A stretch of DNA of 64,000 nucleotides from Hufsiella ginkgonis (GTDB taxonomy: Bacteria > Bacteroidota > Bacteroidia > Sphingobacteriales > Sphingobacteriaceae): NCBI RefSeq assembly GCF_009834915.1, contig NZ_WVHS01000003.1:715988-779987 (forward strand), given 5' to 3'. Positions 49,384 to 64,000 of this stretch are shown one piece after another; within the stretch, counting starts at the first letter, position 1, and every line of letters starts with the position of its first letter. A model generated the notes under the pieces. It was given only the letters and a program-made list of their open reading frames with translations, had not been told where the DNA came from and searched no databases. Made by a program: the position numbers and the translations under genes.

Positions 49384-50748
49384 TTATTTGCTTTGCGCCT
49401 TTTGGTGCTGCAGATTCGGCAGGAAAGCGGTAATAATGCCGATCAGCGGCAGGAAAGCGCAGATCTTAAATACGTGATCGATGCTGGTCCGGTCGGCGAG
49501 CCATCCTAACACGGCAGAGCCTATGCCGCCCATGCCAAAGGCGAACCCGAAGAACAGCCCGGCTATCATACCCACCTTGCCTGGAACGAGGTCCGTGGCA
49601 TACACTAATATGGCCGAAAAGGCCGAAGCGATGACCACCCCGATAAGCACCGCCAGCACCACGGTCCATCCAAGGCTTGCATAAGGCAGTAGCATGGTAA
49701 AAGGCGCCGCACCGAGAATGGAGCCCCAGATGACGTATTTCCGGCCGAAGCGATCGCCCAGGGGGCCGCCGATAACGGTACCTGCCGCCACGGCCGCAAG
49801 AAAGGCGAAAAGATACAGCTGTGATTGCTGTACGGAAAGGTGAAACTTATCGATGAGGAAGAAGGTGAAATAGCTCGTCATGCCGGCCATATAGAAATAC
49901 TTCGAAAAGATGAGCACCAGCAGAATAGAAATTGCAGCCGCCACCTTCCGGGTGGAAAGCGCCTGGCCATTCAGCGGACCGGTCTTCGCCGAAGCTTTTT
50001 TCAAGTGCAAATGTCCGCCGTACCATTTACCTACCTGTACCAGGATCAGGATGCCGGCGATTGCAGCCAGGGCGAACCATGCGATAGAAAACTGCCCGAA
50101 GGGGACGATGATCAGCGCCGCCAGCAACGGCCCGATCGCGCTGCCTGCGTTGCCGCCCAGCTGGAAGATGGATTGCGCCAATCCCTTCTTTCCGCCGGAT
50201 GCGAGATGCGCCACCCGGGACGACTCAGGATGGAACACCGACGAGCCGGCACCGATCAGCGCAACGGCCAGCAAGATGAACGGGAAGCCGGAGGCCATGG
50301 AAAGTGCCAGCAAACCCAGCAAGGTGAACGTCATTCCCACCGCCAGCGAATATGGCTTCGGCTTAATGTCTGTATAAAAGCCGACAAATGGCTGCAATAA
50401 CGAAGCCGTAAGCTGGAACGTGAAAGTGATCATGCCGATCTGCGTGAACGAAAAATGATAGTTGCGCTTTAGCAGCGGGTAGATGGCCGGGATTACCGAC
50501 TGCATCATGTCATTTAGTAAATGAGTAAAACTGATCGTAAATAAAATGGCATAAACGGTGCTTTGGGCAGCGTTTTTCGCATCAGGACCAATAGTAGTAG
50601 CTGGAGTTTTCAATGCGCGGATATGTATGGACCGGACGACAGGCTTGTTGAGAAACAATCCCTGACCCCTAAATAATGGCGTAACCGCCGATGCCTTCAA
50701 AGGTAGCGTATTTGGTGGTTGCCCGCCAGAAAAAGTGTTCAAGATCAT
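49384..50748 (-). CDS. MFS exporter, fosmidomycin-resistance (Fsr)-like
   Basis: 454 residues, 12 predicted transmembrane helices. The first helix region FTISFTHLLNDMMQSVIPAIYPLLK and the loop VGFYTDIKPKPYSLAVGM are typical for Fsr proteins. The first about 55 residues are an atypical basic extension; a later start is possible, but no ATG is well placed. Proton-driven drug efflux is the family role. Confidence 0.88.
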   Translation of the reverse strand: MILNTFSGGQPPNTLPLKASAVTPLFRGQGLFLNKPVVRSIHIRALKTPATTIGPDAKNAAQSTVYAILFTISFTHLLNDMMQSVIPAIYPLLKRNYHFSFTQIGMITFTFQLTASLLQPFVGFYTDIKPKPYSLAVGMTFTLLGLLALSMASGFPFILLAVALIGAGSSVFHPESSRVAHLASGGKKGLAQSIFQLGGNAGSAIGPLLAALIIVPFGQFSIAWFALAAIAGILILVQVGKWYGGHLHLKKASAKTGPLNGQALSTRKVAAAISILLVLIFSKYFYMAGMTSYFTFFLIDKFHLSVQQSQLYLFAFLAAVAAGTVIGGPLGDRFGRKYVIWGSILGAAPFTMLLPYASLGWTVVLAVLIGVVIASAFSAILVYATDLVPGKVGMIAGLFFGFAFGMGGIGSAVLGWLADRTSIDHVFKICAFLPLIGIITAFLPNLQHQKAQSK

Positions 50749-50834: not shown

Positions 50835-51470
50835 ATGAATACGCTTCACTACCGCCCTGTAAACCCGGTTAAACGCGCTGCATGGCTGCTTATCGCTCTT
50901 ATGGCAGGACTCATTGCTTCTACACAACAGGCCGCTGCGCAAACCGCTTATGTGGCTGCAGGCGGCTCGCAGATCACGGTATCGGGCACGTCGACACTGC
51001 ACGACTGGAGCATGCAGGCGACCAGCTTTGATGTGCAGGGTAATTTCCTCCTGAAGAACGGGCAGGTTGCCGATTTGAATTCCCTGGCATTCACCCTCCC
51101 GGTGTCCAATCTTAAAAGTAAGGAAAGCTCGATGGACTCCCGCGCTTACAAAGCGCTAAACGAAAAGGAATTCCCCAAAATGACCTTCAAGTTGAAAGAC
51201 GCCACCGTATCCGCCCAGCTGCATTCGATTAAAGCCACCGGCACCTTAACAATTGCGGGTGTAAGTAAAGAAGTAATACTGGAGGCTTCGTACACGGTGA
51301 ACGGCGATGAAACCATTACCTGCAAGCTTACCGAGCCCATAAAAATGAGCGACTATGGTGTAAAAGCGCCTACCATGATGATGGGCACCATCAAAACCGG
51401 CGATGCCTTAACCATCGACATCGTGCTCAAGCTTAAAAAATCGACCTCTATCGCACAATCCAATCAATAG
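50835..51470 (+). CDS. YceI-family periplasmic protein
   Basis: 211 residues. A signal peptide ends near Ala-Ala-Ala-Gln (residue 35), followed by the YceI lipocalin-like barrel: ITVSGTSTLHDWSM, KSKESSMDSRAYKALNEKEF and MKMSDYGVKAP-like ending (KMSDYGVKAPTMMMG). YceI proteins bind isoprenoid or other lipids in the periplasm. It is followed by an outer-membrane barrel and a second YceI-like gene. Confidence 0.92.
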   Translation: MNTLHYRPVNPVKRAAWLLIALMAGLIASTQQAAAQTAYVAAGGSQITVSGTSTLHDWSMQATSFDVQGNFLLKNGQVADLNSLAFTLPVSNLKSKESSMDSRAYKALNEKEFPKMTFKLKDATVSAQLHSIKATGTLTIAGVSKEVILEASYTVNGDETITCKLTEPIKMSDYGVKAPTMMMGTIKTGDALTIDIVLKLKKSTSIAQSNQ

Positions 51471-53923: not shown

Positions 53924-53997
53924 TCTTTATTTCACGAACTATGCCTATGAAAAACGTACCTGGTTCACCTGCAAATGATGCGAATCAACCGCAATGA

Positions 53998-54009
53998 TGA
54001 CCACCGTCA
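53998..54009. promoter_or_regulatory. FNR-like palindrome TGAC-N4-GTCA upstream of usp
   Basis: TGACCACCGTCA, centre about 57 bp before the first universal stress protein gene. The same half-site layout occurs at 58879-58890 at almost the same distance from the next low-oxygen gene. Confidence 0.45.
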
Positions 54010-54060: not shown

Positions 54061-54960
54061 ATGAAAACGATACTGGTGCTCACAGACTTCTCGGAGAGAG
54101 CGGAACATGCCGCCGCTTATGCCTGGCAACTGGCTGCCCGTGCAGGGGCAAAGCTGGTCTTTTATCACTCTTTTTATGTACCCCATACGCTATCGGCAGA
54201 CTCAGGCCTGTACCCGGTATACTACGACGAGATCACGCAGTTTAAAAACGAAAGCCTGGATAAGTTAAACGCCCTTGCCGCAAACCTGGCCTGGCAGTAT
54301 CACCCGGTAGCCGATAATTCGCGCCCGGAGTACGAATGCCGTAACGGCATGGGCAGCCTGGATACGGTACTGCCCGGGCTGCTGCAGTCGTACCGGCCAT
54401 GGCTGATCGTAATGGGCAACAAACGGGCCGATGACCATTTAACGCACCTGGTAATGGGCAGCGACAGCAACGAGGTGATTGGCAATGCAGACTGCCCGGT
54501 AATGCTGGTTCCCGAATGCGCCGATTTCCACGAGCTTAAACGGATCGAGTTCGCGTTAGCCGCTTTTTGCCCGCAGGAGATAAAAGGACTCGCTTTTACA
54601 GCCGGTATCGCAAAGCTGTTCGATGCCGGGATAGTGATCACACATGTATCGCCGGAAGCAAATGAAGGCGAAGACGTACATGATTTTGTAGAAGAAATGG
54701 CTTCGTTAGTCCGCGACATCAGTTATGAGAACGTGTCTTTTAACGACATCCGCGAGGATAATATTCCGCGAGCACTGGCCGGGCATGCACAGGTTGCACA
54801 GCTGGAGATGATCGCCGTTGTCCATAAACGGTATCCCTTCCTCAGGAAGATCTTTCACAAAAGCGTTACCAAAGAATTAATGAAGCATCATACGGTGCCC
54901 TTGCTGGTGTTCCCGGCGAAATTTGTGGAAGAAGAATGGGTTTATGCACCGGTATTTTAA
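54061..54960 (+). CDS. Universal stress protein (tandem UspA domains)
   Basis: 299 residues made of two UspA-like halves. The first half begins KTILVLTDFSERAEHAAAYA; the ATP-binding loop-type motif is WLIVMGNKRADDHLTHLVMGS. The second half is more divergent. Usp proteins bind ATP and support survival under stress; in bacteria with FixK- or FNR-type regulons they are commonly induced by low oxygen. Forms a pair with the next gene. Confidence 0.9.
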   Translation: MKTILVLTDFSERAEHAAAYAWQLAARAGAKLVFYHSFYVPHTLSADSGLYPVYYDEITQFKNESLDKLNALAANLAWQYHPVADNSRPEYECRNGMGSLDTVLPGLLQSYRPWLIVMGNKRADDHLTHLVMGSDSNEVIGNADCPVMLVPECADFHELKRIEFALAAFCPQEIKGLAFTAGIAKLFDAGIVITHVSPEANEGEDVHDFVEEMASLVRDISYENVSFNDIREDNIPRALAGHAQVAQLEMIAVVHKRYPFLRKIFHKSVTKELMKHHTVPLLVFPAKFVEEEWVYAPVF

Positions 54961-54970
54961 AACAAACGGC

Positions 54971-55852
54971 ATGAAAACGCTCCTGGTATTGATCGATTTT
55001 TCGGCAGCTTCGGTAAATGCCGCGCGTTACGCGGTATCGCTGGCCGGTCAGCTGCCTGCCTGCAGGGTCATCCTGTATCATCCGTTTGTGTTCGAGCCGT
55101 TGTGCGAAGACGAAGAGTTCCCGGTAACGCTGCAGGTGGAGGACTTTTATGAAGAAAGTATCGGCCGCCTGCTGGAGCTGCGGTGCTCGCTGAAACCGTT
55201 GCTGGCAGAGGGGAGGGTGATCGACTGCCGCACCGGCCAGTCGCCGCTGGCGGATGCCTTACCGGCAATTGCCAGGCAGGAACAAGTCGACCTTGTAATA
55301 GCGGGCGGAAGAGGCGGGGAGGTGAGCGACCGACGTGTTACCGGCACAGCGATGGCAGATTCCCTGCTCGATCTTCCTTTCCCGCTGCTGGTCGTCCCTC
55401 CCGGCTGCACGTACAAGCCGGTAAGCCACGCAGTATTTGCCTGCGAGCTTAAAGGTGCGGAAAAGATCCCGGTAGATCAGGTGAGGGCTGCCATGGAAAG
55501 CTTCCGCTCAAAGCTGCACCTGCTTCATGTGGAAAATGTTCCGCCGCAGGCTGATACCGGCAGGAACCTGCTGCAGCAACAGCTCAGGCTTGCCTTGAAG
55601 GACCTTGATCCGGAGTTTCATTTTGTATACCATCGTAATGTACAGGACGGCATTTTACAGTTCATCGATACGGAACATACGGGGCTGCTGATCATGATCC
55701 GCAAGAAACATGGTTTCTTTTATAACCTGGTGCAGGGGAGTGTAACGAGAAAGCTGTCTATGCATCTTTCTGCCCCGCTGCTGGTGCTCAGGGAGAAAGA
55801 ACCTGTGCCGGAGGTAAGGGTTGATGCGGCCGTTTTACCTGGTCTCTGTTAG
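54971..55852 (+). CDS. Universal stress protein (tandem UspA domains), second copy
   Basis: 293 residues from the ATG at 54971, where KTLLVLIDFSAASVNAARYA aligns with the start of the first copy; the upstream 16 codons overlap the previous gene and lack support. Two UspA halves, with LVIAGGRGGEVSDRRVTGT near the middle. It starts 10 bp after the first usp gene, so the two are likely cotranscribed. Confidence 0.88.
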   Translation: MKTLLVLIDFSAASVNAARYAVSLAGQLPACRVILYHPFVFEPLCEDEEFPVTLQVEDFYEESIGRLLELRCSLKPLLAEGRVIDCRTGQSPLADALPAIARQEQVDLVIAGGRGGEVSDRRVTGTAMADSLLDLPFPLLVVPPGCTYKPVSHAVFACELKGAEKIPVDQVRAAMESFRSKLHLLHVENVPPQADTGRNLLQQQLRLALKDLDPEFHFVYHRNVQDGILQFIDTEHTGLLIMIRKKHGFFYNLVQGSVTRKLSMHLSAPLLVLREKEPVPEVRVDAAVLPGLC

Positions 55853-56606: not shown

Positions 56607-57791
56607 ATGGACAAAGCCGCCCTTTTAGACGCCGTCATACAAAATGCCATCGACGGCATCCTGACCATTAATCAGCAAGGTGTAGTGGAGTCGATCAATC
56701 CCTCGGGCTGCAGGCTGTTCGGCTATACGCCGGAAGAAGTGATCGGCAACAACATCTCGATGCTGATGCCCCCTCCCGACAAGGAGAAGCACGACGGCTA
56801 CCTGCAGCGCTACCAGCGCACCCACGAACCACATATCATCGGCATCGGTCGCGAGGTAAGGGGCTTACGCAAAGACGGGTCTACCTTTCCCTTTCGTCTC
56901 GCGGTAAGCGAAGTAAAGCTGGTGGACAGGGTCATATACGCCGGCTTTATCCACGACATTACCCGCGAAAAGGAATCGGAAGAGCGCATCCTGAACTATA
57001 CACAGGAACTCGAAGAACTGGTGAATGAGCGCACCCGCTCGCTGAAAGAGACCGTATCGGCCCTGGAGGAGGCTAAGGAGGAGGTGAGCCAGTCCCTCGA
57101 AAAAGAAAAAGAGCTGAACCAGTTAAAAAGCAGGTTCGTTTCCATGGCCTCGCATGAATTTCGTACGCCGTTAAGCTCGATCCAGCTTTCGGCTTCGCTG
57201 ATCGATAAATATGCCACGCCGCTGGAAAATGCCAATATTCCCAAACACATCGGCAAGATAAAAAACGCGGTGGGCAACCTCACCAACATCCTGAACGATT
57301 TTCTCTCGCTCGAACGTCTAGAAGCAGGCAGGGTAGAAGCGGCCTTCACGCCGTTCGACCTGGTAAAGCTTTCGGAAGAGATCACCGAAGAGATGCAGGT
57401 GCTGGCCAAGGCCGATCAGCACATCATTTACCAGCATACCGGCACGGAAAAAATGATCTCGCTCGACCAAAACCTGCTGAAGAACTGCATTGTTAACCTG
57501 GTGGCTAATTCAATTAAGTACTCGGGCGAAAAAACCTTTATCGAATTTAGCACGGAGATCGGGCCGGGCAGCTGCACCATCACCGTCAGCGATAATGGCA
57601 TCGGCATCCCGGAGGCGGACCAGAAACACTTGTTCCAGCCTTTTTTCAGGGCACATAATACCGGCAATATTCCCGGTACAGGCCTTGGGTTGAATATTGT
57701 ACAACGATACGCCGGGTTGATGAACGGTACTGTTGAGTTTAAATCCGCCATTAACGAAGGCACAAAATTTACCCTGACATTTGCATTGTAA
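56607..57791 (+). CDS. FixL-type haem-PAS oxygen-sensing histidine kinase
   Basis: 394 residues, no transmembrane segment, so cytosolic. A PAS domain (about 5-118) is followed by a coiled coil, a HisKA domain with His183 in MASHEFRTPLS, and an HATPase domain with NGIGIPEA and GTGLGLNIV. In the PAS, His62-x5-Arg68-x7-His76-x5-Arg82 reproduces the spacing of Bradyrhizobium FixL His200, Arg206, His214 and Arg220, i.e. the haem ligand, two propionate contacts and the distal arginine. The kinase should be active at low oxygen and phosphorylate the next gene's receiver. Confidence 0.88.
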   Translation: MDKAALLDAVIQNAIDGILTINQQGVVESINPSGCRLFGYTPEEVIGNNISMLMPPPDKEKHDGYLQRYQRTHEPHIIGIGREVRGLRKDGSTFPFRLAVSEVKLVDRVIYAGFIHDITREKESEERILNYTQELEELVNERTRSLKETVSALEEAKEEVSQSLEKEKELNQLKSRFVSMASHEFRTPLSSIQLSASLIDKYATPLENANIPKHIGKIKNAVGNLTNILNDFLSLERLEAGRVEAAFTPFDLVKLSEEITEEMQVLAKADQHIIYQHTGTEKMISLDQNLLKNCIVNLVANSIKYSGEKTFIEFSTEIGPGSCTITVSDNGIGIPEADQKHLFQPFFRAHNTGNIPGTGLGLNIVQRYAGLMNGTVEFKSAINEGTKFTLTFAL

Positions 57792-57809
57792 TACCGATCA
57801 GCAAACCTC

Positions 57810-58859
57810 ATGAAACCAACCCGGATCCTGATTATAGAAGACAATACCGACATTCGCGAAAGCACGGCGGAAATACTCGAGCTCGCCGGTTACCAGGTGG
57901 CGCAGGCCGACAATGGGAAGAAAGGAGTAGACCTGGCCCTGGCCGAATTGCCCGACCTGGTGTTATGCGACATTATGATGCCCGAACTCGACGGCTACGG
58001 TGTACTTTACCTGCTGAGCAAGCATCCCGCAACCGCTGCCATACCATTCATTTTTTTAACCGCAAAGGCGGAAAGGGTCGACCTGCGCAAAGGGATGGAA
58101 ATGGGCGCCGATGACTACCTCACCAAGCCTTTCGACGACATGGAGCTGCTGAACGCGGTGGAGGTCCGTCTCCAGAAAAAAGAGAAGCAGCAGACCTTTT
58201 ACAGCCAGGCGCTCGAGAGCCTGGGTAATGTGACCGGTCGCGCCGATGGGGTGGCCGAGCTGCGCAGGATGATTGCGGAACGTAAGGTGCGCACTGTGAA
58301 GAAGAAGCAGGTGATCTATTACGAAGGCGATCATCCCGGCGGGATCTACCTGGTGCTGAGCGGTAACGTGAAAACCTACAAGCTGAACCCTGACGGGCGG
58401 GAGTTGTTAACCAACTTTTACGGACCGGAGGAGTATTTCGGTATCCAGTCGCTATTGCTAAGAGAGGAATACTACGAAACAGCGGAAGCGCAGGAGGATA
58501 CCTCGCTTTGCCTGTTGCCAAAAGAGCAGGTTGAGCAGGTACTGTTGAAGTATCCTGATATTTCGCGGCAGTTTATCTGCCTGCTGGCCAATAACCTGAA
58601 GGAGAAAGAAGAACAGCTGATGCAGCTGGCCTACAACTCTGTTCGTAAACGGATCGCGGAGGTGCTGGTGCGGCTGGCGAACCGCGGACCAGGACAACCG
58701 ATCCGCATCTCGCGCGACGACCTGGCCGCCATGGCCGGCATCGCTACGGAAACCGTAAGCCGCACCCTGAGCGACTTTAAAGACGAGGGCCTGATCGAAA
58801 AGAAAGGGAGCCAGATCGATATCGCCGACCTGAAACGCCTGCAGCGGATGAAAAACTGA
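57810..58859 (+). CDS. FixJ-like receiver fused to FNR/FixK-type regulator
   Basis: 349 residues. The receiver (1-125) has Glu10-Asp11, phosphoacceptor Asp54, Thr84 and Lys106. A cyclic-nucleotide-type beta-barrel (about 150-250) and dimer helix follow, then a Crp/FNR HTH with the recognition helix ATETVSRTLSDF (about 312-323). The E-x-x-S-R signature in that helix is what FNR and FixK use to read TTGAT. No N-terminal FNR cysteine cluster is present, so oxygen sensing likely rests with the FixL-like kinase, 19 bp upstream. Confidence 0.92.
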   Translation: MKPTRILIIEDNTDIRESTAEILELAGYQVAQADNGKKGVDLALAELPDLVLCDIMMPELDGYGVLYLLSKHPATAAIPFIFLTAKAERVDLRKGMEMGADDYLTKPFDDMELLNAVEVRLQKKEKQQTFYSQALESLGNVTGRADGVAELRRMIAERKVRTVKKKQVIYYEGDHPGGIYLVLSGNVKTYKLNPDGRELLTNFYGPEEYFGIQSLLLREEYYETAEAQEDTSLCLLPKEQVEQVLLKYPDISRQFICLLANNLKEKEEQLMQLAYNSVRKRIAEVLVRLANRGPGQPIRISRDDLAAMAGIATETVSRTLSDFKDEGLIEKKGSQIDIADLKRLQRMKN

Positions 58860-58878
58860 TAACGATCACTTTTCATCC

Positions 58879-58890
58879 TGACGCAGGTCA
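58879..58890. promoter_or_regulatory. FNR-like palindrome TGAC-N4-GTCA upstream of hemN operon
   Basis: TGACGCAGGTCA, flanked by near-symmetric CATCC and GGATG. Its centre is about 33 bp upstream of the -7 box at 58914, which would put it near -41, the class II activator position. Confidence 0.55.
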
Positions 58891-58913: not shown

Positions 58914-58921
58914 TAATTTTG
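58914..58921 (+). promoter_or_regulatory. -7 box for the LDH-like/hemN transcript
   Basis: TAATTTTG matches TAnnTTTG exactly and lies 18 bp before the ATG at 58940. The -33 region is weak, as expected for an activated promoter. Confidence 0.5.
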
Positions 58922-58939
58922 TAAATAAACCCATACCGG

Positions 58940-59341
58940 ATGAGAGTAGTAGCTTATAGTGTAAAGCCTTTCGAAAAGGAGCCTCTTTCCAGGGCGAACC
59001 AGAAAAAACATGATATCACGCTGATCTCCAATTCGCTTGGCGCGGAAACGGCCGAATTCGCCCGTGGTAAAGATGCCGTAGTGGTGGCGGCCAGCGACGA
59101 TCTCTCGGCGCCGGTGGTGATCCGGCTGGCCGGCCTGGGGGTGAAATACATCGCCGCACGCGCTGCCTCGGTAAGCCATATCAACAGGGATACCGCGTTA
59201 AAGTGGGGCATTAAGATCTCTGTCGTGCCGGAAGATAATATCGCAGAAGTGATTGCCAACCTGGATAAATGGCAGGAAAATAAATGCGTTGGCAAAGCGT
59301 GCGCTTGCGCGGCGGTGTGTGCAGCAAAGGAACAAAGATGA
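58940..59341 (+). CDS. Truncated D-lactate-dehydrogenase-like protein with Cys-rich tail
   Basis: 133 residues. The sequence follows the N-terminal catalytic domain of LdhA-type 2-hydroxyacid dehydrogenases (VVAYSVKPFEKEPLSRANQK, GLGVKYIAARAA), then stops before the NAD domain. The tail KCVGKACACAAVCAAKEQR adds four cysteines. It cannot be a dehydrogenase alone; it may have become a regulatory or scaffold protein, with the tail as a metal-binding site. It shares an ATGA overlap with hemN. Confidence 0.75.
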   Translation: MRVVAYSVKPFEKEPLSRANQKKHDITLISNSLGAETAEFARGKDAVVVAASDDLSAPVVIRLAGLGVKYIAARAASVSHINRDTALKWGIKISVVPEDNIAEVIANLDKWQENKCVGKACACAAVCAAKEQR

Positions 59342-60690
59342 AAGAGCTGATCAACAAATACAATGTGCCTGCGCCGCGGTACACGAGCTACCCCACGGTG
59401 CCCTGCTGGGATGCGGTGAAGCCGGGAACGGAAACATGGATGACCTCTGTAAAAACAGCCTACAACGCCGCTGATGGCCTGAGCCTGTACATCCACCTGC
59501 CTTTTTGCGAAAGCTTGTGTACGTATTGCGGCTGTAATACCCGCATCACCAAAAATCATGGGGTGGAAATGCCCTATATCGAAGCGCTTTTGAAAGAATG
59601 GCGGATTTACCGCGATATCATCGGGCCGGCGCCGAATATCAAAGAGATTCACCTCGGCGGAGGTACGCCTACCTTTTTTAAACCCGGCAACCTGCGGTTC
59701 CTGTTAACAGGGATCCTGAACGGTTGCGGGGTATTACCCGGCGCTTCCTTCAGCTTTGAAGCACACCCCGTAAACACTACGTACGAACATTTACAAGCAC
59801 TGGCCGACATCGGGTTTACCCGCCTGAGCCTCGGTATCCAGGACTTTGACCCGCGCGTGCAGGAAATCATTAACCGCGTACAAACAGTTAAACAGGTAGA
59901 AACTGTGACTTCACAGGCACGTGCCCTGGGCTATCAATCCATCAATTACGACCTCGTTTATGGCTTGCCGCTGCAAACTACCGGCGGCTTACAACGCACT
60001 TTATGGAAAACCATGGAGCTGCGGCCGGACCGCATCGCCTTCTACAGCTATGCACACGTGCCCTGGATAAAACCCGGCCAGCGTATGTTTACCGAAAAAG
60101 ACTTGCCTTCTGTTTCCCAAAAACAGGAACTGCACGAACTTGGCCGCAGCCTGCTTATGAATGCCGGCTACCGCGAAGTGGGCATGGACCATTTCGCGCT
60201 CCCTTCTGATGGGTTGTTCCTCGCCGAGGCTGCCGGTGCGCTGCACCGTAACTTTATGGGATATACCGAGCACCGCACTTCGTTACTGCTTGCATTGGGT
60301 GTTTCGTCCATCGGCGACGCCGGTACCGCATTCGCCCAGAATGAGAAGAAGCTGGAAGATTACCTGGCTACGATCGGTAAGGGGGAGCTGCCCATCATGA
60401 AAGGGCACGTGCTCTCCAGCGACGACCGGATCATCCGCCGGCAGATCCTTAACCTGATGTGTAAGGGTGAAACGATATGGAATGTGTCTGATCCCGACGA
60501 GCTAAGGTTGTGCAGTCAGGCCAGGTCCCGCCTGGCGCCGCTGGTTGAAGACGGCCTGGTAACCTGCACCGGGAACGTGATCCATGTGACCGCTGACGGG
60601 AAACGTTTCCTGAGAAATATCTGTATGATGCTGGATGAAAGGTTATGGAACGGTGCGGCGGCGGAGCAGAAATTTAGCAGGGCTGGCTGA
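59338..60690 (+). CDS. hemN: Oxygen-independent coproporphyrinogen III oxidase
   Basis: 450 residues from the ATG at 59338; the frame opens 18 codons earlier inside the LDH-like gene, but the ATGA overlap supports this start. The radical-SAM motif is Cys57-x3-Cys61-x2-Cys64-x-Cys66 (HLPFCESLCTYCGCN), followed by IHLGGGTPTF and the GIQDFDPRVQ motif. Anaerobic haem synthesis; supplies haem for cbb3 oxidase, and a typical FNR target. Confidence 0.96.
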   Translation: MKELINKYNVPAPRYTSYPTVPCWDAVKPGTETWMTSVKTAYNAADGLSLYIHLPFCESLCTYCGCNTRITKNHGVEMPYIEALLKEWRIYRDIIGPAPNIKEIHLGGGTPTFFKPGNLRFLLTGILNGCGVLPGASFSFEAHPVNTTYEHLQALADIGFTRLSLGIQDFDPRVQEIINRVQTVKQVETVTSQARALGYQSINYDLVYGLPLQTTGGLQRTLWKTMELRPDRIAFYSYAHVPWIKPGQRMFTEKDLPSVSQKQELHELGRSLLMNAGYREVGMDHFALPSDGLFLAEAAGALHRNFMGYTEHRTSLLLALGVSSIGDAGTAFAQNEKKLEDYLATIGKGELPIMKGHVLSSDDRIIRRQILNLMCKGETIWNVSDPDELRLCSQARSRLAPLVEDGLVTCTGNVIHVTADGKRFLRNICMMLDERLWNGAAAEQKFSRAG

Positions 60691-60706: not shown

Positions 60707-61390
60707 TCACCTGCAAACCGCTACTCCGGGCTTCGCAGCTTCTTTCCCCGGGACCAGGTACGGCACTGACAATGTTAATCCCCTCAGCACGAACCACGCC
60801 CCCAGGCACAACATAAACCATGGGACCACTTTATTGATCTTTTTTCGGAATAGGGGCGTGATCCAACCGGCGCCGAGCGTGGCCACCAGCATCAGCGGCA
60901 TAGTTCCGGCGCCGAAGCAGGTCATGTAAACGGCGGCGCCGGCGACGGTTCCGGTATTGATGGCTCCCGCCAACGCGAGCGATACAAACCCGCAGGGCAG
61001 CATTCCGTTCAGCATGCCGATAACCAGGTGGTTATAGCGGTGCTTCAGCGCCAACGAAAGCAGCCTGGTAAACGGGAACGTGAGCGAATGTTTTGGCCCC
61101 GTCCATTTAAGCAGGAGGGAGCAGGCGGCGGTCACGATCAGTAGTCCGCTTACAATGCTTACCACTTGCTGCAGGCCCGCCATCCAGAGCTGTTTACCGA
61201 TAAAGCCGGTCAGCACGCCCAGTAAAGTGTAGGAAACGACTCTCCCCAGCTGGTAAATCAGCTTGTCGAATACCAGCATCCAGCTTCCCGCGTGAGCGGA
61301 AGGTACCGAGAACGCCAGCGGCCCGCACATGCCCAGGCAATGGATGCTGCCAAACAAGCCGGTGAAAAAGGCCAATGTATTGTCGCTCAT
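60707..61390 (-). CDS. SafE/DsbD-like membrane protein next to cbb3 genes
   Basis: 227 residues, six predicted transmembrane helices. The start FFTGLFGSIHCLGMCGPLAF and the mid-region NGMLPCGFVSLALAGA match the DsbD_2-type sulfite exporter-like proteins that accompany ccoG and ccoH in Bacteroidota. It likely helps cbb3 maturation, for example by copper or thiol handling. The start overlaps ccoH by 4 bp. Confidence 0.85.
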   Translation of the reverse strand: MSDNTLAFFTGLFGSIHCLGMCGPLAFSVPSAHAGSWMLVFDKLIYQLGRVVSYTLLGVLTGFIGKQLWMAGLQQVVSIVSGLLIVTAACSLLLKWTGPKHSLTFPFTRLLSLALKHRYNHLVIGMLNGMLPCGFVSLALAGAINTGTVAGAAVYMTCFGAGTMPLMLVATLGAGWITPLFRKKINKVVPWFMLCLGAWFVLRGLTLSVPYLVPGKEAAKPGVAVCR

Positions 61391-61812
61391 TTGATGGTCA
61401 TCTGTTGTTTTAATTTTTGGGCGATGCCGTGGTCGGTCCAGCGGATCTCCAGGTTCCAGTTGCCGGGCGCCAGGCGATGAGCGGGGATCGTGACGGGTAT
61501 GCCGGCTTCGGCAACGTTTGCCAGTGTAAAGTCGCGGGCCGAGTTAAAGGGGTGCCTGCATATAAGGGTGTAGGGTACCGTTTCCGTGAATGTAACCCGG
61601 ATCCCTTTTGCGCCGGATGTAACCGCGGGCAGCTTCGCCTGGTCGAGTGCGTTTTGTTGTTCCCGGTAGTCGGAATCATAGGATTGGCCCTTTTCATAGT
61701 AATCCTTTTCTACCAGGTCGTCTTTCCCGCCTACGAGCATCCGTGTGCCCATGGACAGGATGAAGACGATAAACACGGTAAGCCCGATGGCTAATTTTGT
61801 TCCCCAGCTCAT
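61387..61812 (-). CDS. ccoH: CcoH/FixH cbb3 oxidase accessory protein
   Basis: 141 residues with a single N-terminal transmembrane helix (ALTV-like LAIGLTVFIVFILSMGTRM), the motif LVEKDYYEKGQSYD and a periplasmic beta-rich domain ending WTDHGIAQKLKQQM. FixH assists cbb3 oxidase assembly. The start is 3 bp after the ccoG stop. Confidence 0.92.
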   Translation of the reverse strand: MSWGTKLAIGLTVFIVFILSMGTRMLVGGKDDLVEKDYYEKGQSYDSDYREQQNALDQAKLPAVTSGAKGIRVTFTETVPYTLICRHPFNSARDFTLANVAEAGIPVTIPAHRLAPGNWNLEIRWTDHGIAQKLKQQMTIK

Positions 61813-61814
61813 AA

Positions 61815-63209
61815 CTAATAGGTTTTATATGGTGCGATAAAGGTGGTGCGTACCTGGTCGATACGCTTGCCATTTGAAAATATATTGAGCCGAATTTCTG
61901 ATTTATAGTCTTGCAGCTCGTTTTGCCTGCGCACGAGGAAGAAGGTCAGCTTCACTGATCCGTCGCGCGCAATGGCGGTTTGCTTGTTAACGTACCTGAT
62001 GGATACCGCCGGGTCGTCGGCCGCAATATTAAACCTCACGGCATGCGTGGTTTTGTTCACCAGCTCGGCGGTGTAAAGGTTGCTGATCATGCTGCCGGGC
62101 AGTTCCTGGTAGAGGGTGCCGCTGGCGCGATATACGGAAGTTTCGATGTCGCTGCGGCGGATGATGAGGAAGGCGGTACTGATCAACAATACACCCAGTA
62201 CCGCCGAGTAGGCATAGACCCGTTTACTGATGCGGAGAGGTTTGCGGCCGGTCACCTGTTCCTCTGTTTTGAAACCGATGAGCCGGGGCTGCCGGTCGAG
62301 TTTTTTCATCACCATGTCGCAGGCGTCGATACAGGCGGTGCAGTTGATACATTCGGGTTGGGAGCCGTTGCGGATGTCGATGCCCGTGGGACAAACATCT
62401 ACGCAGAGGCCGCAGTTTATACAGTCGCCGGTTGGAGTTTCGCTGTTGCGTTTTCGTTTTCCGCGGGGCTCGCCGCGCACGTCGTCGTACATCACCTGGA
62501 TGCTTTTGTTATCGAGCAGCACACTTTGCAGGCGTCCGTAAGGGCAGATCACGGTGCAGACCAATTCGCGCAGCCGCGCGAAAACGAGGTGGAAAACGAG
62601 CGTGAACAGGAGTAGGAAGCTAAGTCCGGCGATATGGGCGGTTACCGGTTCGCGGATAATTTTGATTAAAGACCCGGCGCCAATAATATAGGCCAGGAAA
62701 ATGTTTGCGATGAGGAAAGATACAAGGAGAAAGATCCCGTGCCTGGCTGCTTTTTTAGCTACTTTGGTAAAGGACAGGGGTGCAGCATCCAGCTTTTTTT
62801 GTTGCAGGTGGTCGCCTTCTATCCAATATTCGATGGGCCGGAAAATGATCTCCATGAAGATGGTTTGCGGGCAAGCCCACCCGCACCATATTCGTCCCAG
62901 CACCACGGTGAACAGCGCGATAAACACCATGAAGGTGAGCATCCCGACCACGAAAATGTAGAAGTCCTGGGGAAGGAATACCAGGCCGAAGAAGACGAAT
63001 TTGCGTTCGGGGATGTTGAAAAGGAACAGTTGTTCGCCATTTATGCGGATGAACGGGCCGGTAAACAACAAACCGAGAAGCGTATAACCCACCAGCACGC
63101 GGTAATGGTATAATTTTCCTTTGATGACTTTGGGGTATATCCATCGGCGTTTCTTGCCATGGGTAGTTACTTCGGCGGTATGACCTGGGGGAATTTGGGC
63201 GATGTTCAT
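61815..63209 (-). CDS. ccoG: CcoG/FixG cbb3 oxidase accessory ferredoxin-like protein
   Basis: 464 residues, about five transmembrane helices with two [4Fe-4S] clusters in the middle: CINCGLCVDVCPTGIDI and CINCTACIDACDMVM. A C-terminal Ig-like domain follows. It acts in copper reduction or cofactor delivery for the oxidase. The N-terminus carries the motif WIYPKVIKGKLYHYR. Confidence 0.95.
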   Translation of the reverse strand: MNIAQIPPGHTAEVTTHGKKRRWIYPKVIKGKLYHYRVLVGYTLLGLLFTGPFIRINGEQLFLFNIPERKFVFFGLVFLPQDFYIFVVGMLTFMVFIALFTVVLGRIWCGWACPQTIFMEIIFRPIEYWIEGDHLQQKKLDAAPLSFTKVAKKAARHGIFLLVSFLIANIFLAYIIGAGSLIKIIREPVTAHIAGLSFLLLFTLVFHLVFARLRELVCTVICPYGRLQSVLLDNKSIQVMYDDVRGEPRGKRKRNSETPTGDCINCGLCVDVCPTGIDIRNGSQPECINCTACIDACDMVMKKLDRQPRLIGFKTEEQVTGRKPLRISKRVYAYSAVLGVLLISTAFLIIRRSDIETSVYRASGTLYQELPGSMISNLYTAELVNKTTHAVRFNIAADDPAVSIRYVNKQTAIARDGSVKLTFFLVRRQNELQDYKSEIRLNIFSNGKRIDQVRTTFIAPYKTY

Positions 63210-63380: not shown

Positions 63381-64000
63381 CTATTCCTTTTCCCCCTGCG
63401 GCGCCTTCGCATTCACCGGGTTCGTTCCCTTCAACGAAAGGATATAGTTGGCAACTCCCGCGATCTGTTTCGGCGTGAGCTTTTTTTCCCAGGAGATCAT
63501 TCCCTTTTCGGGGATGCCGTACTTGATCGTTTTAAAGATGCTGTTTACAGCGCCGCCGTGCAGCCAGTATGCGTCGGTAAGGTTAGGTCCTACTACACCT
63601 TGTGCATGGTCGCCGTGGCAGGGCACGCAATTGGTGGCAAAAACGGCTTTTCCTTCGGCTATTTCCCCGGCGTCGGCGGATACCCTTACAGACGATTCGT
63701 CTACTGCGTTGGCGGCGCTTGCCAGGAAGGCGGCCTGTTCCGTTTTTGCTTTTGCCATTTCATCGGCGTACTCCTGGTCCTGCAGTTTGCCCCAGCTGAA
63801 GACGTGGTAAATAAGCAGGTAGCCTGCGGCGAACACAATGGTGCCATAAAAGAGCCCCATGAACCATGCGGGGGTGGGGTTATTCAGCTCCACGATGCCA
63901 TCGTAGTCATCGTCTGCCTGCATGGCGGTTTCGTCGGCGAGGGGTTTCAGGCCCAGGAACTTGTTCCATACCGATGGCCGGGCTTTACGCAAAGCAAGCC
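63381..64000 (-). CDS. ccoP: cbb3 oxidase subunit III (CcoP), 5' end cut by window edge
   Basis: The frame stays open to the right edge, so the N-terminus, probably one more transmembrane helix, is missing. Visible: PTPAWFMGLFYGTIVFAAGY transmembrane helix and a periplasmic cytochrome c domain with the haem motif CVPCH at residues 122-126 of the visible reading from 63992, and GIPEKGMISW with a likely Met ligand. Only one haem c site is present, as is usual in Bacteroidota; proteobacterial CcoP has two. Confidence 0.95.
   Translation of the reverse strand, partial: LALRKARPSVWNKFLGLKPLADETAMQADDDYDGIVELNNPTPAWFMGLFYGTIVFAAGYLLIYHVFSWGKLQDQEYADEMAKAKTEQAAFLASAANAVDESSVRVSADAGEIAEGKAVFATNCVPCHGDHAQGVVGPNLTDAYWLHGGAVNSIFKTIKYGIPEKGMISWEKKLTPKQIAGVANYILSLKGTNPVNAKAPQGEKE

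Follow-up and report, generated by a model that had tools for sequence, protein, structure and literature searches.

A FixL-type PAS kinase, an adjacent receiver-CRP/FNR fusion regulator and candidate paired operators: a putative hypoxia switch in Hufsiella ginkgonis and other Bacteroidota

Hufsiella ginkgonis (Bacteroidota) encodes a histidine kinase with a FixL-type PAS domain directly upstream of a response regulator in which a complete receiver is joined to an FNR-type CRP module, and a palindromic motif recurs around the two genes as pairs of boxes 22 bp apart. The explanation we favor, and consider reasonably probable as a whole, is a two-component hypoxia switch in which the kinase would signal to the fusion regulator and the regulator would act at the paired operators. 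The DNA analyzed, referred to here as the window, is a stretch of 64,000 nt (NCBI RefSeq assembly GCF_009834915.1, contig NZ_WVHS01000003.1, positions 715,988 to 779,987 of the forward strand).

The kinase and regulator genes are both on the + strand, with 18 bp between them (Table 1). Two universal stress protein genes lie upstream; on the other side, the DsbD_2-domain gene, ccoH, ccoG, and ccoP are convergent to the D-lactate-dehydrogenase-like gene and hemN. Domain searches place ccoS and a ccoI-like P-type ATPase gene beyond the window end, together with ccoN and ccoO, which are a single gene here (L087:1439-3562), encoding one 707-aa protein with COX1 and FixO domains. At 53 loci, the D-lactate-dehydrogenase-like protein encoded ahead of hemN is either short, with 107–162 aa (29), or long, with 324–360 aa (24); judged by eye, the short form, as at 58940-59341, is without the middle part and keeps a cysteine-rich tail.

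Table 1. Features of the kinase-regulator locus and its surroundings. Positions are those of the window unless prefixed.
Feature	Position	Strand	Remarks
Candidate operator box TGATGCGAATCA before usp1	53976..53987	.	motif scan
Candidate operator box TGACCACCGTCA before usp1	53998..54009	.	22 bp beyond TGATGCGAATCA
Universal stress protein 1 (usp1)	54061..54960	+	domain search
Universal stress protein 2	54971..55852	+	domain search
Sensor histidine kinase	56607..57791	+	394 aa; one FixL-type PAS, long helix, HisKA (H183), HATPase_c
FixL-type PAS domain, residues 6-118	56622..56960	+	His62, Arg68, His76, Arg82; I77, L98, V100
Receiver-CRP/FNR fusion response regulator	57810..58859	+	349 aa
Receiver domain of fusion, residues 6-118	57825..58163	+	D54, T84, K106
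CRP-type beta-roll of fusion, residues 161-247	58290..58550	+	domain match and alignment to T. thermophilus CRP
HTH_Crp_2 DNA-binding domain of fusion, residues 280-347	58647..58850	+	recognition helix E314..S317-R318
Distal candidate operator box TGATAACGATCA	58857..58868	.	first TGA is the regulator stop codon
Proximal candidate operator box TGACGCAGGTCA	58879..58890	.	22 bp beyond distal box
-7-like element TAATTTTG (Bacteroidota type)	58914..58921	+	29 and 51 bp from the two box centres
Short D-lactate-dehydrogenase-like protein	58940..59341	+	133 aa; first gene of presumed hemN operon
hemN, oxygen-independent coproporphyrinogen III oxidase	59338..60690	+	TIGR00538, 405.8 bits, cut-off 324.95
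DsbD_2-domain protein (SulE)	60707-61390		after ccoH; domain search
ccoH	61387-61812		after ccoG; domain search
ccoG (FixG)	61815..63209	-	domain search
ccoP	63381..64000	-	runs beyond window end
Fused ccoN-ccoO gene	L087:1439-3562		beyond window end; COX1 and FixO domains
ccoNO paired box	L087:3619-3652 = C19:782618-782651		within end of ccoS frame

An earlier note, made from the sequence alone, recognized the PAS domain by His62, Arg68, His76, and Arg82. All four are present, in the frame and at the coordinates it gave, and their spacing is that of Bradyrhizobium japonicum FixL (ungapped alignment to 1dp6, E 2.6e-29), whose chains are the best solved relatives of the domain. The match is not due to chance, since the equivalent residues are conserved across 71 aligned family kinases (70 homologues plus that of the window): the His62 equivalent is kept in 69 and that of Arg82, the FG-loop arginine, in all 71, with the distal-pocket residues I77, L98, and V100 in 70, 70, and 59. 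Arg68 (57/71) and His76 (44/71) are less constant; the latter is not diagnostic of FixL, because Sinorhizobium meliloti FixL has an arginine there. The marks of a FixL PAS domain, a proximal histidine, the FG-loop arginine (IIGxGR), and a distal I/L/V-I pocket, are all found here. The combination of His62, IIGxGR, and Arg82 occurs in none of the 24 other PAS matches of the genome, several of which are short or partial and do not reach all positions. By its residues the domain is of FixL type, and it is probably oxygen-sensing.

A domain that is FixL-like in sequence could conceivably respond to some other ligand or to redox state, with no haem-based oxygen switch. Arg68 and His76 do vary, the histidine is missing from two of the 71 kinases, and a tree of 42 of the 52 PAS rows collected (omitting eight own-genome domains, mostly short, and the kinases of relatives L051 and L061) contains no clade of the family and FixL only. 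Its 11 family rows form one clade (99/99), inside a 31-row group (95/85) that also takes in three FixL, 12 plasmid PAS, and five ordinary own-genome PAS domains; one weakly supported branch (77/73) splits all 16 own-genome rows used from the family plus FixL. The tree is compatible with a FixL-type PAS but is no proof of it. The near invariance of the histidine, the equivalent of FixL Arg220, and the distal I/L/V positions nevertheless speaks for haem and oxygen, as does the presence of the low-oxygen genes hemN and cbb3 among the candidate targets, and we think another ligand distinctly unlikely.

The name FixL does not extend to the whole kinase, as the earlier note had it. The PAS domain is followed by a predicted long helix (residues 119-206) and a core in which H183 is invariant in 35 aligned kinases, but this core is not of FixL type: it reads SHEFRTPLSS against AHELNQPLSA, the core alignment is gapped, and the kinase scores 153.6 bits with the NCBIfam equivalog model for rhizobial FixL, below the cut-off of 850.

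The regulator, for its part, has the architecture that had been proposed: a complete receiver (Response_reg), with Asp54, Thr84, and Lys106 in place, joined to an FNR-type CRP module (cNMP_binding and HTH_Crp_2) whose recognition helix carries E-x-x-S-R as E314-T-V-S317-R318. Among 30 aligned regulators, E10, D11, D54, and K106 are invariant, and T84 is at least 90% conserved. The receiver is not FixJ-like, contrary to its first description. It has 25% identity to FixJ over 113 aa; PleD and RpaA are its best solved matches, and models of the CseB, PhoB, RpaB, and MtrA families score best. The LuxR-type output of FixJ is likewise not present in the fusion, whose output is HTH_Crp_2.

For the CRP part, the best solved match is Thermus thermophilus CRP, with FNR and FixK2 lower in the list. 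The beta-roll and helix-turn-helix with E-x-x-S-R are features of FixK and FNR, which are stand-alone proteins, whereas here a receiver is attached at the N terminus. The glutamate, arginine, and serine that we take to be the cAMP-binding ligand motif of CRPs, including that of T. thermophilus, align with Ile, Tyr, and Tyr in the fusion. Its only cysteines are at positions 53, 234, and 257, so that, as the earlier note had seen, those of the N-terminal FNR iron-sulfur cluster are absent. With both kinds of ligand residue gone, the receiver would be the obvious input to the DNA-binding module. Cys53 and Cys234 are invariant in the 30 aligned members, and Cys234, in the beta-roll, might be a second redox input. 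Fold searches with whole models returned CRP/FNR folds and histidine kinases, and none of the 50 matches listed for each has the fused architecture.

The gene pair is not peculiar to H. ginkgonis, to which the earlier note had confined it; that possibility was rejected by a scan of loci and a survey of 395 genomes. In the best 80 of 575 stretches encoding any relative of the query, all from Bacteroidota by their record titles, the kinase gene is directly upstream of the fusion in 68; of the remainder, at least one (L005) is without it at a contig edge. A full-length fusion is encoded in 56 of the 395 sampled genomes of the phylum: 58, this one included, have a match at 1e-40, of which two are to the receiver only.

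When 4-mer inverted repeats with spacers of 3–11 were counted without bias, in the 80 loci together with 14 kb from the window and L087, TGAC-N4-GTCA ranked first, with 63 occurrences against 6.5 expected. The more general TGAY-N4-RTCA has 275 intergenic and 67 coding sites in these best 80 of 575 loci, where coding DNA is seven times longer, for a 30-fold higher density between genes than within them; gene calls followed a simple longest-ORF scheme, making "intergenic" approximate. Ten other spacers gave 5–23 intergenic sites and permuted half-sites 0–13, apart from YGAT (107), which overlaps the TGAY motif. The geometry, TGA(C/T)-N4-(A/G)TCA, is that of the FixK/FNR site TTGAT-N4-ATCAA, but the outer base is usually A or G and rarely T (8%).

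In the best 80 of 575 loci, boxes occupy the 200 bp upstream of 50 of 53 hemN-operon genes, 49 of 71 kinase genes, 24 of 35 Usp1-like genes, and 14 of 18 genes for the 604-aa type of protein, compared with 106 of 470 other genes. They are rare before the regulator (7/78), hemN itself (3/41), SulE, the DsbD_2 protein (2/28), ccoG (2/19), ccoP (1/13), ccoH (0/24), and ccoI (0/4); the count took in no ccoNO-labelled gene with a full upstream stretch. At 56 of 79 family loci, a perfect box takes its first TGA from the regulator's stop codon, so that the end of the coding sequence and the candidate operator are locked together; among 810 other genes, this is the case for 7.

Many of these boxes have a partner. 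Counting as a distinct pair one perfect intergenic box plus a second with at most one mismatch, there are 121 pairs at exactly 22 bp in the best 80 of 575 loci, against a mean of 2.3 at 67 other spacings between 13 and 80. Among box-bearing promoters, the 22-bp pair is found at 41 of 50 hemN-operon genes, 22 of 49 kinase genes, 13 of 24 Usp1-like genes, 11 of 14 genes of the 604-aa type, and 54 of 106 others. One example of each kind was scanned from the 54 others; in these relatives, genes behind pairs encode a YkuD transpeptidase and BON-domain, pyridoxamine-oxidase-like, PPDK_N, beta-CASP, zinc alcohol dehydrogenase, flavodoxin, and lysine-decarboxylase-like proteins. The set may resemble hypoxia and dormancy islands elsewhere.

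The 5.2-Mb genome of H. ginkgonis itself has four pairs, allowing at most one mismatch in all, and none for a reversed-pattern control. A scan of the window plus L087 finds all four, at C19:769963, 774844, 782618, and 785619; they span 15,690 bp, or 0.3% of the genome, around the fusion gene. One pair each stands before usp1, the hemN operon, and ccoNO, and the fourth lies in a divergent promoter shared by the gene for a 604-aa protein and a small unnamed gene located upstream of ccoI; the ccoNO and divergent pairs have one mismatch each. This 604-aa protein (L087:6677-8491), encoded beside ccoI, has no Pfam match. No box is found in the 126 bp upstream of the kinase gene. Elsewhere in the window, a one-mismatch box at 50736-50747 lies 51 bp before TATTTTTG, upstream of a YceI-domain gene at 50835, with no partner box.

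The position of the boxes relative to promoters bears on the direction of control. Taking TAnnTTTG to be the Bacteroidota -7 element, 83 of these were found near 363 sites, 51 of them at 51 bp and 11 at 29 bp after the box center. With the looser TAnnTTT[GCT], the orthologous promoter of the hemN operon accounts for 34 of the 51-bp cases, but other genes contribute 24 at 51 or 29 bp, none of them directly behind the regulator. These peaks are not seen at kinase and usp promoters of the 80-locus set. In H. ginkgonis, the hemN and ccoNO promoters have a -7-like element 51 and 29 bp from their two boxes; at the usp and divergent promoters there is no TAnnTTT at the expected place. The predicted transcription start of the hemN operon is about 11 bp beyond the TA of TAATTTTG. 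Class II activators bind at about -41.5, and activation from about -41 would fit the box geometry of the hemN operon and ccoNO. Sequence does not reveal the direction of control, and the fusion might instead repress its targets, or bind DNA constitutively and be tuned by dephosphorylation. A box centered 29 bp before the -7 element is where a class II activator would sit, however, and we think these possibilities very unlikely; activation is the reading retained here.

Which protein reads the boxes is a separate matter. Single boxes do not test a link to the fusion, and their genome-wide counts were dropped for this purpose: strict boxes number 105 in 18 genomes with the fusion and 102 in 18 without, and the stricter RTGACNNNNGTCAY has 10 sites in the H. 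ginkgonis genome against 8 for the reversed pattern. A single-box search there with RTGAYNNNNRTCAY gave 108 sites, about half of them with known places, against 24 for its reversed pattern. Pairs were therefore used. They number 127 in 19 fusion-bearing and 29 in 18 fusion-less genomes (reversed controls 2 and 9), a fusion-less genome being one with no match at E 1e-40 in a search that scored the five best candidates per genome and that a divergent fusion could escape. The pairs are commoner with the fusion (Mann-Whitney P 0.0013), and also within a single genus, six genomes with it against eight without (P 0.0039); the genomes being kin, both P values are indicative.

The idea that paired boxes mark the fusion alone was nevertheless rejected. 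Two fusion-less genomes, G150 and G017, have them in their cco clusters, where those of G150 adjoin a stand-alone FNR-like gene with N-terminal cysteines; two others, G111 and G076, have five and three pairs, with no labelled gene nearby in the two stretches examined for G111. A single box precedes hemN in 11 of the 14 fusion-less genomes that have this gene. The 15 fusion-bearing genomes with hemN fall into three groups: in six, hemN is unlinked and has a single box before it; in five, a box precedes a linked hemN operon, four of these with a degenerate partner at 22 bp; and in four (G210, G312, G088, and G033), the 900 bp next to hemN contain no box. G312 has no pairs at all. Since fusion-less genomes carry them, the boxes are of FNR type and not private to the fusion; in our reading they come from an older FNR-type regulon, shared or here taken over by the fusion, a history that fits better than a collapse of FixJ and FixK into one protein.

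It follows that the gene pair could be real and yet the boxes be read by another CRP/FNR protein, the fusion controlling something else. The boxes persist in fusion-less relatives, which have FNR-like proteins of the stand-alone kind; in one genus, such a protein with a CxxC start is found in all eight fusion-less and all six fusion-bearing genomes examined, where it thus coexists with the fusion. H. ginkgonis has four further cNMP-binding (CRP-family) proteins, all above the Pfam cut-off. These, however, are encoded on other contigs, and the three examined (all except L092) carry E-x-x-S-R without a CxxC start; the fusion is the only protein of the genome above the HTH_Crp_2 cut-off. All four pairs of the genome surround the fusion gene, and it is the fusion's own stop codon that so often opens a box in the family. 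On balance another reader seems unlikely, and we infer that the fusion reads the boxes.

The proposed switch would then work as follows. By analogy with FixL, the PAS domain would bind haem through His62 and bound oxygen would hold the kinase off, loss of oxygen switching on autophosphorylation at H183. The phosphoryl group would presumably pass to Asp54 of the adjacent regulator, and the phosphorylated receiver, rather than cAMP or an iron-sulfur cluster, would make the FNR-type dimer competent for TGAY-N4-RTCA. Bound at about -41 and -63, to sites paired at a distance of 22 bp, the regulator would activate usp, ccoNO, and the hemN operon as well as the divergent promoter next to ccoI; in relatives it may also activate its own kinase-regulator operon. 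A tentative and rather doubtful extension is that of a phospho-gated FNR: two CRP-type dimers, seated on the same face of the DNA at a distance of 22 bp, might grip each other by their receivers, so that loss of oxygen leads to cooperative binding at paired operators; the fusion might have displaced iron-sulfur FNR as main reader of the hemN/cco island in some Bacteroidota, with an operator built into its stop codon. The candidate operators, promoters, and genes are defined closely enough to be tested directly.

Rhizobia offer the well-known case of oxygen control over cbb3 oxidase and anaerobic haem synthesis, with three proteins in series: FixL phosphorylates FixJ, which turns on a separate fixK gene, with hemN and cco as low-oxygen targets of the cascade. 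The H. ginkgonis system has in common with FixL-FixJ-FixK of S. meliloti and B. japonicum the haem-ligand histidine of the PAS domain and the kinase-regulator gene pair; the neighborhood is also alike, fixLJ having USP and Crp/Fnr genes as neighbors in one S. meliloti plasmid and hemN in one Rhizobium plasmid. It differs in having a single PAS domain, another kinase core, and a receiver that is not FixJ-like, and its FNR-type output is fused to this receiver, leaving no separate fixK step. The earlier suggestion that a two-protein circuit drives hemN and the cbb3 genes directly, FixJ and FixK having collapsed into one protein, can accordingly be divided. Candidate operators before the hemN operon and ccoNO make direct control without a separate fixK plausible, and this part is strengthened by an operator that came from an unbiased count; the collapse, with a receiver 25% identical to FixJ and a kinase core that is not FixL's, is rejected as ancestry and apt as a description of function.

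FixK is without the iron-sulfur cysteines of FNR, and so is the fusion, which differs from FNR in this. With FNR and FixK2 (5e44, 4i2o) it shares the CRP fold, E-x-x-S-R, and, for its candidate operator, a TGA(T/C) palindrome with four unspecified bases between; its N-terminal receiver and an outer half-site base that is rarely T (8%) set it apart. If the proposal is right, an FNR-type DNA-binding module is controlled by phosphorylation, not by ligand or cluster.

As far as the parts of the sources consulted go, the hFixL-FxkR-FixK system of R. etli and R. leguminosarum is similar in that a haem kinase and a response regulator other than FixJ act ahead of an FNR-type step, but hFixL there belongs to the hybrid kinases, FxkR is a protein apart from FixK, and the FxkR site, GTTACA-N4-GTTACA, differs from TGAY-N4-RTCA (PMC7888657, PMC4999443). 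Within Bacteroidota, Chitinophaga sp. MD30 was predicted to have a haem-PAS kinase, announced as FixL-FixJ by annotation, the parts consulted giving no fusion, operator, or regulon (PMC5646412), and CRP/FNR homologues of Flavobacteriales have been interpreted, in the parts consulted, as MalR-like carbon sensors (PMC8510549). Literature searches of open-licence PMC papers, judged by title and abstract opening, yielded no receiver-CRP fusion beside a haem-PAS kinase in this phylum. Should the switch operate as proposed, many environmental Bacteroidota would run with two proteins the oxygen control for which rhizobia use three.
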